NCBI GenBank assembly: GCA_015065165.1
Contig: SVQU01000003.1
Span: 1 to 64,000 of the forward strand
DNA from: Oscillospiraceae bacterium
GTDB lineage: Bacteria; Bacillota; Clostridia; Oscillospirales; CAG-382
Reading direction: 5' to 3'
Length of the DNA: 64,000 bases
This document shows, piece after piece, positions 3,401 through 53,077 of this stretch. The translations under genes and the position numbers were made by a program. The notes under the pieces were generated by a model, which saw only the letters and a program-made list of their open reading frames with translations, did not search any database and had not been told where the DNA came from. The first letter of the stretch is position 1. Every line of letters begins with the position of its first letter.

Positions 3401-5284
3401 ATGTACGAATACTTCCCTTTACTTATTGTGGGCGCGGTTATCGGTTTGGCATCGGTTATATTTATCATTGCTTACGCCATGATAAAGGACAAAAAAGAAG
3501 CCATCGGATTTGACCGAAATATGAAAGACGGCGAAATTACAAAGCGACTTTTGAAATATGCTCGCCCTTATACGAAAAATTTCGTTTTCGTGTTGGTTAT
3601 AATGCTTTTTTCCATTTCTTACGATATTATTGCCCCCACACTTGTGGGAAACATCGAGGAAATGATAAAGTCCGATTTTCAATTGAACGCCCTTTGGTCA
3701 TACGTAGCAATTTATGCGGGAATCCTTGCGGTTTCATTAATATGCACCTACGTTCAGGCGATAGTTTTACAAAAAACCGGTCAAAAAATTCTTTCTTCTT
3801 TGCGAGAGGATTTATTTTCTCACATAGAAAGCCTTTCCCATAATCAGTTGAACCAAACACCCGTGGGCAAATTGGTAACCCGTGTAACCAACGACACCAA
3901 CGCAATTTCGATGATGTTCACCAACATTTTGGTTAACCTTGCGAAGAACGTTTTTATAATCTTCGGTGTTATCGGAGCAATGCTGTGTCTTAACTATATG
4001 CTCACGCTTATGGTCCTCTGCTTTGCCCCCTTTATCGTTATTTTTACGGTTATATTCCGCAAGTTCTCGCGCAAGGCATACCGCGAGGTAAAAGACGGAA
4101 CAACAGATATAAACACCTTTTTGTCCGAGCATCTTTCGGGTATGAAAATTATACAAATCTTCAATCGCGAAGAGAAAAAATCCAAAGAATTCAACGAGAA
4201 AAACAACCGTTTGGGCAAGGCTAAGCACAGACAGATTTTTGTTTTCGGCATATTCCGTCCTATGGTTTATATGCTTTATATCTCATCGGTTTTATGTCTT
4301 TTTTATCTTGGCGGACGAGGATATATCAACGATATAACCTTTCTTGGGCAAAAGATTACCGGCGGTGTTATCGTTTCCTTTTATATGTACATAAACAAAT
4401 TCTTCAACCCTATACAGAGCCTTGCCGAGCAATTCAACTGGCTTCAATCGGCATTTGCTTCGGCAGAGAAAATTTTCACCGTTTTTGACATCAAACCCGA
4501 GGTTGTAGACAGCGAGAATGCCATTGAACTGGAAAACGTAAAGGGCGATATCGAATTCCGCAACGTATGGTTTGCATACAAAGACGAGGATTGGGTTTTA
4601 AAGGACGTTTCCTTTAAGGTCAGCGCAGGACAGACCGTAGCGTTTTGCGGTTCTACCGGTTCGGGTAAAACAACTATTCTTTCGCTTATATGCCGTAATT
4701 ACGATATTCAGCGAGGCGAAATTTTCATTGACGGAATTGAAATCAGAAAAATCAAAATCGCATCTCTCAGAAAACATTTTGGGCAAATGCTTCAAGACGT
4801 ATTTCTGTTTTCGGGAACCATACGCTCGAACATTCTTCTGAGAGAAGAAGGCATTGGCGACGACCAAGTTATGGAAGCATGCAGATATGTAAATGCCGAC
4901 AAGCTTATCGCCAAGCTTCCGAAAGGGCTTGACGAAGAAGTAAGAGAACGGGGAAGCAATTTCTCGGCAGGTCAAAGACAGCTTATTTCCTTTGCAAGAA
5001 CCATTATACACAAGCCCGAAATTATGATTCTTGACGAGGCTACGGCAAACATCGACACCGAAACCGAGGTATTGATTCAGGACAGCCTTGAAAAGCTTAT
5101 GAATATCGGCACCCTGCTTATAGTCGCCCACAGACTTTCCACAATACGCCACGCAGACAACATTATATATTTGTCTCACGGCGAAATTATCGAACTGGGT
5201 TCTCATACCGAACTGCTTGAGAAAAAAGGCAGATATTACGAATTATACAAGCTTCAGCAGGACAAAGCACTGCTAAAAAAATAA
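3401..5284 (+). CDS. Heterodimeric ABC exporter, catalytic subunit
   Basis: This 627-residue half transporter pairs with the preceding gene. It has six membrane segments up to about residue 345, Walker A GSTGSGKTT (417-425), signature FSAGQ (521-525) and Walker B IMILDE (541-546) with the catalytic Glu546 intact. The atypical signature SAGQ and canonical Glu are what is expected of the BmrD/TM288-type partner: together the two subunits form one active and one degenerate nucleotide site. Its N-terminus has an extra hydrophobic segment (residues 5-28) before the usual transmembrane domain. Confidence 0.9.
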   Translation: MYEYFPLLIVGAVIGLASVIFIIAYAMIKDKKEAIGFDRNMKDGEITKRLLKYARPYTKNFVFVLVIMLFSISYDIIAPTLVGNIEEMIKSDFQLNALWSYVAIYAGILAVSLICTYVQAIVLQKTGQKILSSLREDLFSHIESLSHNQLNQTPVGKLVTRVTNDTNAISMMFTNILVNLAKNVFIIFGVIGAMLCLNYMLTLMVLCFAPFIVIFTVIFRKFSRKAYREVKDGTTDINTFLSEHLSGMKIIQIFNREEKKSKEFNEKNNRLGKAKHRQIFVFGIFRPMVYMLYISSVLCLFYLGGRGYINDITFLGQKITGGVIVSFYMYINKFFNPIQSLAEQFNWLQSAFASAEKIFTVFDIKPEVVDSENAIELENVKGDIEFRNVWFAYKDEDWVLKDVSFKVSAGQTVAFCGSTGSGKTTILSLICRNYDIQRGEIFIDGIEIRKIKIASLRKHFGQMLQDVFLFSGTIRSNILLREEGIGDDQVMEACRYVNADKLIAKLPKGLDEEVRERGSNFSAGQRQLISFARTIIHKPEIMILDEATANIDTETEVLIQDSLEKLMNIGTLLIVAHRLSTIRHADNIIYLSHGEIIELGSHTELLEKKGRYYELYKLQQDKALLKK

Positions 5285-27421: not shown

Positions 27422-27604
27422 ATTCTTGTTACTCCTTGATTGTTTATTTTCTGTAAAAGTATTTTAGCACACAAAATATCAAATAAGCAATAGATTTGCA
27501 TTGAAAATACTTGGTTTTTGGCAACTTTCGGTTGATATTTTTCGACGGCAAAACTTTACTTTTGGGCACTATTTCCAATGTTTGACGGCAAAACACGCAA
27601 AATT

Positions 27605-27621
27605 TGTCGAATTTTGTCGAA
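27605..27621 (+). promoter_or_regulatory. Tandem Spo0A boxes
   Basis: Two copies of TGTCGAA (27605-27611 and 27615-27621) lie one helical turn apart within TTTGTCGAATTTTGTCGAAT. They match the core 0A box and sit upstream of spo0A itself, so autoregulation is plausible. Confidence 0.6.
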
Positions 27622-27840
27622 TTTTGTATTTTGCCATTTATTTAAGATTTTTGGTTGTTATTGTTTTTTATAGTCGAAGTTTATGGTTTAAAGAAAACGG
27701 GAAACAAAAAAGCCCTCTCTGTGGAGAAGGCGTTATTGCAGTTCCGCATCTTTTAATAGTGATGTGCTATGCCCTCACTATATAATGTCGAAAAATGCGA
27801 TTTCGTCTATAAAATAATTAATATTTTTAGCCACCAGCAA

Positions 27841-50644: not shown

Positions 50645-51163
50645 ATGGATTTTATAACACTTGCCTCCGAAAGATATTCGGTTAGGAAATTCAAGGATAA
50701 AAGGTTAGAAAAAGAAGTTATCGAAAAGATACTTAAAGCAGGCCATATTGCCCCCACCGGTTGCAATTATCAACCCCAGCGGATTTTGGTTTTGGAAAGC
50801 GACGAGGCTTTGGAAAAGCTTAAAGTTTGCACCAAATGCCATTTCGATGCACCAAACGCTATGCTCGTTTGCTATAATCGGGATGAATGCTGGACGCGTA
50901 AATACGACGGCGCACAAAGCGGAAGTATTGATGCTTCAATTGTTGCAACCCATATGATGCTGGCGGCATTCGAGCTGGGTGTGGGAAGCTGTTGGGTTAT
51001 GCATTTCGACCCTGCGGCTATGAAGCGCGAGTTTTCTATCCCCGATAATATCGAGCCCGTGGCTTTATTGGTAATGGGATATCCCGCCGATGATGCCAAG
51101 CCCTTGAATTTACATTCGCAATACAGAGATATCAACGAGGTTGTAAAATATAACCGTTTTTGA
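50645..51163 (+). CDS. Nitroreductase family protein
   Basis: This 172-residue FMN-dependent protein starts FITLASERYSVRKFKDK, the usual nitroreductase opening with the FMN phosphate-binding arginines. It continues with LKAGHIAPTGCNYQPQRI and ASIVATHMMLAAFELGVGSCWV. It likely reduces nitro compounds or quinones with NAD(P)H. I chose the ATG at 50645 (TGAGGT upstream); the frame is open further back over the end of pth. Confidence 0.9.
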   Translation: MDFITLASERYSVRKFKDKRLEKEVIEKILKAGHIAPTGCNYQPQRILVLESDEALEKLKVCTKCHFDAPNAMLVCYNRDECWTRKYDGAQSGSIDASIVATHMMLAAFELGVGSCWVMHFDPAAMKREFSIPDNIEPVALLVMGYPADDAKPLNLHSQYRDINEVVKYNRF

Positions 51164-51187: not shown

Positions 51188-51550
51188 GGCTGTGGCAAAA
51201 GAACGGGTTTCCTAAGGACAGTTACCTTTAATAAAAACGGAATTTGGCACACAAATTCCCTGCTTGTAACAGTATAAGACAAAAAACTACCCGAAGAAAG
51301 AAAACAAAACTCTTTTTCGGGTAGTACTTTTTATATCGTGATATTCTGTGCTTTTCGCACAGAGTGATATTTCCCTTTCGGGAAGTGCTATTGAAATCTT
51401 ACGATTTCAGTGATATTTTATTCGCCATAAACTGCCGAAGGCAATATCACTTGAACGAAGTTCAAATATCACTGCGTAGCAATAGAGCTCGCCGTAAGGC
51501 GAATAAAACTGCCCAAGTGTCCTTTGGAACACTTGGGCAATGCCACAGCC
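51188..51550. mobile_element. Hairpin-rich element with perfect 10 bp terminal inverted repeats
   Basis: GGCTGTGGCA (51188-51197) and TGCCACAGCC (51541-51550) enclose 363 bp without a gene. Inside are at least nine hairpins: 51239-51259, 51286-51325, 51346-51362, 51371-51384, 51392-51409, 51433-51443, 51451-51465, 51489-51502 and 51510-51539. The linkers are GTGATAT in the left half (51338, 51364, 51410, plus a variant near 51385) and ATATCAC in the right half (51444, 51466), so the two halves mirror each other. No target-site duplication is evident. The inverted ends recall IS1182-like ends from memory, so a MITE-like origin is possible but unproven. Confidence 0.6.
51286..51331 (+). terminator. 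Hairpin within the element that may terminate the nitroreductase operon
   Basis: ACTACCCGAA / TTCGGGTAGT, a 10 bp perfect stem with a 20-base loop, followed by ACTTTTTAT. Confidence 0.55.
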
Positions 51551-51570: not shown

Positions 51571-52995
51571 CTATTTCTTTTTAGCGCCAATGCGATATAA
51601 GGTTAAACCGCCGATTATAAGAACTATGCCGATTATAATCCAAACCATACCGCCGTTACCGCCTTCGGTTTCGTCGGAGGAAGCGGAAGCTTTGGAGGAT
51701 TCTTCGGAAACTTCTTCGGAGGATTCAACAGAAGATACGGAAGAAGATTCTGCTTCGGAAGATTCTGCTTCAGAGGATTCAACGGGTGCGCTTGATTCGG
51801 GCGCGGTGGTGGGTTCTTCATACTTTATGCTGTCCTTTTTAACAACAAGAAGCACGTCGCAAACCTGACGGGTGGAATTCATAACGAAATCCTCGCCATC
51901 AACGTACATACTGGTAGATCCGCCGCCGTCAAGACGGATAACGTTTTTACAACCCAATTTTACCATTTCGTCGGCAACGTCCTTAAGGGTAAGACCGTAT
52001 TCCTCGCTTACCCAATAAACGTAAGAGCCGTCCTCTTTAACGCCAAAAGCTGTCCAAGCGCGTGCAAGGGATGTATCGTGGATAATGGTTGTGGAGGTAT
52101 CGGTTAAATCAACGCCATCTTTAACAAGATAGTAAGCACTGCTTATTGCGGAAACTGCATTTTTCATAACCGATTCTGCCGCAGGGATGCTTTCTTTGGG
52201 GGTGATTTCGATTTTATCCCCCGCCTTCATAACAGAGGCGCGTTTGAAATATAAGCCATCGGTTTTAACGAAAAGAACAAACTGTGTTTCGTCGGTAACC
52301 TTGGTTGCGCCGTAGGTGGAATCGGTTTTGATTTCGGTTACGGTTGCTTTAAGAGTTTTGCCCACAGCCAACTGACCGCCGTCGGTGATTTCGCAAATAA
52401 TTTCGATACCCGTAACGGAGGTGTCGGCAAGGTCGCCTGCATCTATATCGTAATATTGGAAATGGCCCGTGATATCTCTTTTAGACATACTTGTTGCGCC
52501 GAAAAGCTTATTTACCAAGCCGATGCCGCCATCGTAGGATTGACCGTTGAGGCTTAATCCCATAATGATTTTACTGGTAACAACGCTTAATTTACCGTCT
52601 TTATCGAAAGCGGCAATAGATTCGCCACGTTCGTTATGGGTGAAAACAAGCTTGCCGTCGGAAATAAGAGTTCCGCAGGGGGCGCCGGAAGACATATCGA
52701 AGAAAGAGCCGTTAATTGCGCCTACAACCTCATAGCCCTTGGCTTGGGCATCGGCAACGTGGTCCTTCGCAAGGCAAACCGAACCGCTGTTACCCGTGTA
52801 TGCAAAGGGAATAAGACCGTCGGCAGGGTTAAATTCCAAAACGTTAACCTGTGCGTTAACCCCCGAAACAACGCCGTTGACCTTATAGTGGTCGCACTTC
52901 AAGCCGTTTTCCGCCACGTGAGGTTCTGCAGCAACGGTAAGACAAAGTGAACAAAGCAGGGCAAAAGCCAATGCTATTGCAAAAATGCGTTTCAT
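51571..52995 (-). CDS. Exported phosphodiester glycosidase (NAGPA) domain protein
   Basis: This 474-residue protein has a signal peptide (MKRIFAIALAFALLCSLCLTVAA) and a NAGPA/phosphodiester glycosidase domain, recognised by VVGAINGSFFDMSSGAPCGTLI, ARAWTAFGVKEDGSYVYWV and CKNVIRLDGGGSTSMYVDG. A long Ser/Glu-rich linker and a C-terminal membrane helix (MVWIIIGIVLIIGGLTLY) with basic tail anchor it on the cell surface. Family members remove sugars attached by phosphodiester bonds. The start at 52995 has TAGGAGA. Confidence 0.88.
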   Translation of the reverse strand: MKRIFAIALAFALLCSLCLTVAAEPHVAENGLKCDHYKVNGVVSGVNAQVNVLEFNPADGLIPFAYTGNSGSVCLAKDHVADAQAKGYEVVGAINGSFFDMSSGAPCGTLISDGKLVFTHNERGESIAAFDKDGKLSVVTSKIIMGLSLNGQSYDGGIGLVNKLFGATSMSKRDITGHFQYYDIDAGDLADTSVTGIEIICEITDGGQLAVGKTLKATVTEIKTDSTYGATKVTDETQFVLFVKTDGLYFKRASVMKAGDKIEITPKESIPAAESVMKNAVSAISSAYYLVKDGVDLTDTSTTIIHDTSLARAWTAFGVKEDGSYVYWVSEEYGLTLKDVADEMVKLGCKNVIRLDGGGSTSMYVDGEDFVMNSTRQVCDVLLVVKKDSIKYEEPTTAPESSAPVESSEAESSEAESSSVSSVESSEEVSEESSKASASSDETEGGNGGMVWIIIGIVLIIGGLTLYRIGAKKK

Positions 52996-53048
52996 AATTA
53001 AATCTCCTAAAAAACGAAATAGGGAGCAAACAATGCCCCAACATTTGC

Positions 53049-53077
53049 AGTATAACACAAATAAAGCCCGTTGTCAA
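53049..53077 (-). promoter_or_regulatory. Sigma-A promoter of the NAGPA gene
   Basis: TTGACA (53072-53077), 17 bp, TATACT (53049-53054) on the minus strand. Confidence 0.8.

Follow-up and report, generated by a model that had tools for sequence, protein, structure and literature searches.

The pneumococcal BOX element is a modular intergenic repeat with variable middle units, and group IIC introns insert beside terminators. The transposons IS1272 and TnSha1, of the IS1182 family, enter terminator hairpins with no primary-sequence specificity and no target duplication (PMC4923244), and the REP superfamilies reported to date are tagged by GTAG or CGTC (PMC3116915, PMC3733652). In the list of Weinberg and colleagues, Gut-1 is a noncoding RNA confined to the human gut (PMC2864571). 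Against these systems we set a 363-bp block (51188-51550) in a 64,000-nt stretch of DNA, hereafter the window, from contig SVQU01000003.1 of the Oscillospiraceae bacterium (CAG-382) assembly GCA_015065165.1. The hairpin array that it contains is real, well conserved, dispersed, modular, palindromic and linked to terminators, and we put the probability at about 0.58 that it represents a mobile element, palindromic, dispersed and non-autonomous, whose copies spread into intrinsic terminators or to sites directly behind them.

The block lies within the 407-bp gap between two convergent genes, a nitroreductase family gene on its left (50645-51163, +) and a phosphodiester glycosidase (NAGPA) gene with a Ser-rich C-terminus on its right (51571-53058, -). 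It folds far below its shuffled versions, with a minimum free energy of -138.5 kcal/mol compared with -79.5 +/- 5.8 (z -10.1), and 0 of 100 shuffles were as good. The original prediction held the block to be bounded by perfect 10-bp repeats and to be mirror-symmetric along its whole 363 bp. The repeats are there: GGCTGTGGCA (51188-51197, +), preceded by AAAAA, and TGCCACAGCC (51541-51550, +), followed by GATTTTATTT, are the perfect left and right arms of an outer stem, apparently the intrinsic terminator of the locus. The symmetry, however, is confined to an array at 51338-51509, with a terminator-like module (51198-51332) before it and the strong T hairpin (51510-51539) after it. The block thus has two layers, an inner hairpin array and an outer terminator layer.

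All parts of this copy are given on the + strand. To the left of the array lie a left-end motif, GGGTTTCCTAAGGACAGTTACC (51205-51226), which repeats the T hairpin imperfectly and in inverted orientation (ungapped scores against inverse T of 7-15 in 14 composites, where shuffled T gives a mean of 5.4), a left-module hairpin, GGAATTT-GGCACAC-AAATTCC (51239-51259), and a terminator-like hairpin, AAAAAACTACCCGAAGA...CTTTTTCGGGTAGTACTTTTT (51281-51332), which stands alone at loci L272, L275 and L276. The array starts with linker L1, GTGATAT (51338-51344), and hairpin H1, TCTGTGC-TTTTC-GCACAGA (51345-51363), and continues through L2, GTGATAT (51364-51370), H2, TTCCC-TTTC-GGGAA (51371-51384), L3, a degenerate GTGCTAT (51385-51391), H3, TGAAATC-TTAC-GATTTCA (51392-51409), and L4, GTGATAT (51410-51416), to the core strand TTATTCGCC (51418-51426), which forms the 5' side of a long-range stem, P1, and whose first base covaries with 51506. 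The right half consists of H4, TGCC-GAA-GGCA (51433-51443), R1, ATATCAC (51444-51450), H5, TTGAAC-GAA-GTTCAA (51451-51465), R2, ATATCAC (51466-51472), H6, T-GCGTAGC-A (51473-51481), R3, a degenerate ATAGAGC (51482-51488), and H7, TCGCC-GTAA-GGCGA (51489-51502), the 3' arm of which can alternatively pair with the core; the 3' side of P1 is GGCGAATAA (51498-51506). Linker R4, ATAAAAC (51503-51509), ends the array, and the T hairpin, TGCCCAAGTGTCC-TTT-GGAACACTTGGGCA (51510-51539), ends the putative mobile unit. The TTTC, TTAC, GAA and GTAA loops are where they had been placed, and so are the GTGATAT and ATATCAC linkers, apart from the third linker and the last two on the right, which are degenerate. 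Pairing of linkers across the element, also proposed, is possible but is absent from the minimum-energy fold.

BLAST against the 1.67-Mb source genome gave 19 matches, two of which (L003 and L019) are one place and one of which (L018) is the terminator-like module alone, leaving 17-18 related places. Array matches were found in 44 of 99 related genomes, and the exact core pattern occurs in at least 115 stretches of public genome contigs, nearly all from uncultured ruminant-gut Clostridia/Oscillospiraceae. The element is clearly not a single copy with unconserved modules, the outcome against which the original prediction had been set. Several contigs of the source genome end within copies, and the true copy number will therefore be higher; copies of this kind break metagenome assemblies. 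A phylum-wide scan with the Rfam model RF01706 found matches in 3 of 299 genomes only, under stricter filters and with few close relatives in the set. Arrays had no plasmid match. Four pattern matches fell in viral contigs, of which L280 alone is a genuine array; the remaining three seem to have arisen by chance in sequence of coding type, and those in a Lentisphaerae MAG (L104) and an Alphaproteobacteria MAG (L117) are likewise chance. Two loci from other phyla (L207, L208) were left out of the set. MT835815.1, an unannotated human-faecal scaffold deposited as phage, carries an array beside a tRNA at about 5062-5174 (L283); this scaffold is probably bacterial chromosome and not phage.

Across loci we parsed 157 cores, and in 84 both sides were complete. 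Because the public loci were picked by the exact core motif, the selection itself imposes core conservation, while the hairpins, the R linkers and position N' are independent of the motif; distinct hairpins were counted, since loci share ancestry, and nearly all of the genomes are fragmented MAGs. The common plan is L1 H1 L2 H2 L3 H3 L4 - core - H4 R1 H5 R2 H6 R3 H7 R4 - T, with the 3+4 hairpin count kept in the 84 complete copies and linkers of 7 bases. Hairpin sequence varies freely (58, 82 and 72 distinct forms of H1, H2 and H3, and 25, 53 and 20 of H4, H5 and H6) with pairing maintained: in H1-H6 the arms show 88-98% Watson-Crick pairing, compared with 63-74% when arms are swapped between copies. 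H6 is the weakest of these, its best arm-swap shuffles equalling the observed pairing, and the near-invariant stem of H7 makes the comparison uninformative there. Covariation extends to the base pair that borders the linker, which is T-A, G-C or A-T. In P1, formed across copies by the core strand NTATTCGCC and GGCGAATAN', the covarying pair is Watson-Crick in 102 of 104 copies (T-A 48, A-T 36, C-G 18), with N free in the search pattern and N' outside it. It is this pairing that indicates that the 3' arm of H7 can pair either locally or with the core, a three-strand relation that was seen again by eye in families with unrelated stems (L053, L266).

The loops switch strand at the core. Left-half loops are of the form T..C in 101 of 185 distinct hairpins and G..A in 2; right-half loops are G..A in 78 of 120 and T..C in 0, nearly always with a closing C-G. 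Consequently, the 3' half of either strand shows cGNAg or cGNNAg loops, and H6 is GCGNAGC in 76 of 104 copies. The sequences d(GCGNAGC) and d(cGNNAg) form exceptionally stable DNA hairpins. The GCGAAGC mini-hairpin is used in published work, for example in PMC4686876.

The same plan recurs with other linker pairs: GCGATAT/ATATCGC (L266-L269), ATGAAAT/ATTTCAT (L053, L055), GTGAAAT/ATTTCAC (L146), GTGAAGT/ACTTCAC (L274) and ATGAAGT/ACTTCAT (L095, in a single-contig genome from the same phylum). In each of the families GTGATAT, GCGATAT, RTGAAAT and RTGAAGT the opposite half carries the reverse complement, and a blind scan for inverted linker arrays yielded 22 bins, compared with 0 in shuffled sequence. 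Since the linkers of one element change jointly and its halves match, the pattern points to one partner that would recognise all linkers of an element, rather than to linker-by-linker pairing with mates. Locus L050 (G000:C28, about 27512-27810) holds tandem ATGAAAT-type arrays (n=2), about 220 bp apart, beside a tRNA-Arg gene.

Turning to the outer layer, a stem of the form AAAA-(GC-rich) ... (GC-rich)-TTTT encloses about 19 composites, its sequence differing at every locus, and the terminal stems of 15 of 51 copies lie above the 99th percentile of mismatched pairs. These enclosing stems look like intrinsic terminators. We therefore reject the reading of the 10-bp repeats as transposon TIRs: they are not the ends of the element, as had been supposed, but apparently locus-specific terminator arms. 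G009, a genome of the same genus, supplies the orthologous site without the element for which the original prediction had called. There the same nitroreductase and NAGPA genes (74% and 47% identity) also converge, separated by 35 bp as against the 407 bp of the window, and the gap holds a plain bidirectional terminator, AAAAAGAGCC-TTTTTA-GGCTCTTTTTTT, with a stem sequence differing from the window's. Terminator arms flanking the element and an intact terminator at the empty site are what targeting of the IS1182 type would leave, but gain and loss are indistinguishable at this pair of sites, and loss could explain the difference. In relatives, the gene that precedes the copy on contig C16 is closed by a plain terminator or leads straight into the next gene, and among genus members with a resolved gene end only G018 likewise has an array behind it. 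In about 80% of placed copies (public loci, naive ORF calling) the T side faces the 3' end of a gene or tRNA, while the orientation of the left neighbour is mixed; where the gene is a tRNA, array and terminator are immediate neighbours. In L102 and L177 a fragment resembling a tRNA 3' end (GTTCGAATCCA..) adjoins the array on its left, and a recurrent palindromic block (GCATCGCATTTGTA..TACAAATGC, GGGC..GCCCAAACCC) lies next to many arrays (L007, L009, L114, L163).

The boundaries of the unit can be read from copies on five contigs of the source genome (C12, C16, C26, C25 and C30), which are near-identical from AAG|TTTTATT to the T end and unrelated outside. On these unlinked contigs the homology stops precisely at the first linker on one side and at the T hairpin on the other; shared ends were among the features that the original prediction proposed to check. 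The units on C25 and C30 are truncated where their contigs end and have a longer left flank in common. The copies on C42 and C27 have a common right half and different left halves, from which it follows that modules recombine. Neither the ends of the source-genome copies, inspected by eye, nor the empty site in G009 showed a target-site duplication. Of the three original suggestions (MITE, structured RNA, protein-binding array), the first fares best: the element is short, non-coding and dispersed, with multiple near-identical copies, sharp shared ends and an empty site, but its ends are only imperfectly inverted, the terminal repeats are not its ends, no flanking duplications were seen and no TIRs shared with an autonomous transposon were found. 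Palindromes of ~40 bp (CCCCGCAAAA..TTTTGCGGGGACCCC type) lie within the H7 loop in L083, L087, L260 and L261 and in L011/L061, and are hairpins landing in hairpin loops; a small palindrome, ATACCTCGCC..GGCGAGATAT, occupies the centre of H2 or H3 in L164, L165, L260 and L261.

A search for a mobilising enzyme, one of the checks originally proposed, gave no transposase with matching ends and no recurrent gene beside arrays. The IS1182 transposase was rejected as mobiliser, having 0 matches in the source genome and being depleted in array-bearing relatives (99 genomes, Fisher p 0.04). In relatives, IS1182-family elements at L230, L231, L232 and L234 seem to begin immediately after a terminator hairpin (..CAGACTGTCGAAAAAGTCC) that is itself intact.

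Could the array instead be a structured noncoding RNA, Gut-1 (RF01706), that acts as a transcript, its genomic repeats being a multi-copy sRNA family? The view that the block is no known terminator, riboswitch or attC site does need amending as regards known RNAs, since its left half (51336-51421, +, 41.4 bits) and its right half (51439-51511, -, 40.1 bits) both match the Gut-1 model at E about 1e-6, under the gathering score of 50, and 13 of 26 matches in the source genome exceed that score (51-73 bits). A noncoding RNA was what the authors who described Gut-1 proposed (PMC2864571), and the stability of the fold agrees with it. When RNA parameters are used, the GUGAUAU strand is clearly the more stable in either half (76 of 84 left halves, 83 of 84 right), on our reading of the sequence through G.U pairs of adjacent linkers. 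This difference is predicted by an RNA model and is not required by a DNA model; DNA energy tables did not separate the two strands of whole halves. Against this, the two halves of one element match the model on opposite strands, the loop type switches strand at the core, copies sit behind the terminators of unrelated genes, and a conserved promoter is not established. Nor is an excess of G.U over A.C mismatches clear, single-mismatch stems having G.T 26 and A.C 17 (p 0.22), compared with G.T 60 and A.C 0 in tRNA stems at array loci, a control biased by a tRNA finder that demands pairing. Finally, the third base of GNNA tetraloops is a pyrimidine (T or C) in 34 of 87, which the GNRA rule forbids and which is unlike RNA GNRA selection. 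We favour, without regarding it as proven, a folded form of DNA rather than RNA, and consider an RNA role, though possible for the half-unit, unlikely, and less likely than a mobile element. Given matches on opposite strands and 26 genomic matches, the Gut-1 family itself looks more like a half-element, and hence a spreading repeat, than like an ordinary RNA gene.

The strongest of the alternatives, although still improbable, is that the host maintains the arrays as 3' punctuation, in which hairpins and double terminators serve between genes as a roadblock, an insulator or a stabiliser of mRNA 3' ends, recombination having spread them and selection retaining them. The fixed orientation with T toward gene 3' ends, the terminators on both sides and the pairing that survives sequence turnover would all fit, but most orthologous sites in relatives manage with a plain terminator, and termination has no need of linkers that match between halves in four families. 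Very unlikely, in our estimate, is a REPIN/BIME family dependent on RAYT (TnpA_REP). The source genome does have a RAYT gene (C42:30720-31343; L318:1501-2133), missed by Pfam Y1_Tnp and found by NF047646, and another lies about 200 bp from an array in G052. Both genes, however, contain GTAG-tagged REPs, inserted in frame in the coding sequence of the former, which points to a different cognate repeat, whereas the hairpin feet of the arrays have GTGATAT or related 7-mers and no GTAG or CGTC tag. RAYT genes are about as frequent with arrays (19 of 44 genomes) as without (21 of 55; Fisher p 0.68), Y1 genes are not enriched in array-bearing genomes (99 genomes, Fisher p 0.53), and neither was detected in several array-rich genomes (G009, G012, G018, G020, G083); RAYT/Y1 was accordingly rejected as mobiliser. 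Least probable of all is that the palindromes are kept solely by mutational template switching at quasi-palindromes, with neither recognition nor movement. This would account for perfect hairpins of changing sequence and for small hairpins inserted in hairpin loops, but leaves the fixed linkers, the loop-strand switch, the 3+4 count and the near-identical units at unlinked loci unexplained.

Returning to the mobile element, its movement is suggested by its dispersal and the empty site. Its working part would be the seven hairpins, three with GTGATAT linkers, the core and four with ATATCAC, with the terminator-like T last. Each DNA strand would then present the same recognition face, a 3' half of cGNAg/cGNNAg hairpins followed by ATATCAC, and a structure-specific enzyme acting in trans would recognise the element as folded DNA and insert copies at terminator hairpins with no target duplication. 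In the window, insertion would have split the host's bidirectional terminator, whose two arms now flank the element and came to be mistaken for terminal repeats. More tentatively, and we would call this doubtful, the enzyme may read the folded DNA by a two-part code (the linker 7-mer plus cGNAg/cGNNAg hairpins of free sequence), target terminators and belong outside the known transposase families, with Gut-1 a misread DNA element. The architecture is unusually rigid and sequence-free, and is conserved across several linker families. If the element is mobile, abundant gut Clostridia would harbour an enzyme that recognises tandem DNA hairpins and seeks terminators, of interest to transposition biology and to safe-site targeting.

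Among known systems, BOX would resemble the array in its modular build and group IIC introns in their placing beside terminators; the arrays encode nothing. With REP/BIME/REPIN (PMC3116915, PMC3733652) it shares dispersed intergenic palindromes, a short conserved tag beside variable hairpins and an inverted arrangement, but it differs in its 7-base linkers, fixed 3+4 count, strand-switched loop code and lack of association with RAYT. Its choice of target resembles that of IS1272/TnSha1, which however bear a transposase (TnSha1 is 3022 bp; PMC4923244); the source genome has no match to an IS1182 transposase. The element thus acts like a REP/BIME or a terminator-seeking MITE, without having every defining feature of either. 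As for Gut-1, catalogued as a noncoding RNA since 2010, either half-array aligns over its whole length with the RF01706 model, but here the family may be recast as one half of a dispersed inverted-pair element, found on both strands and in many copies behind the terminators of ruminant-gut Clostridia.
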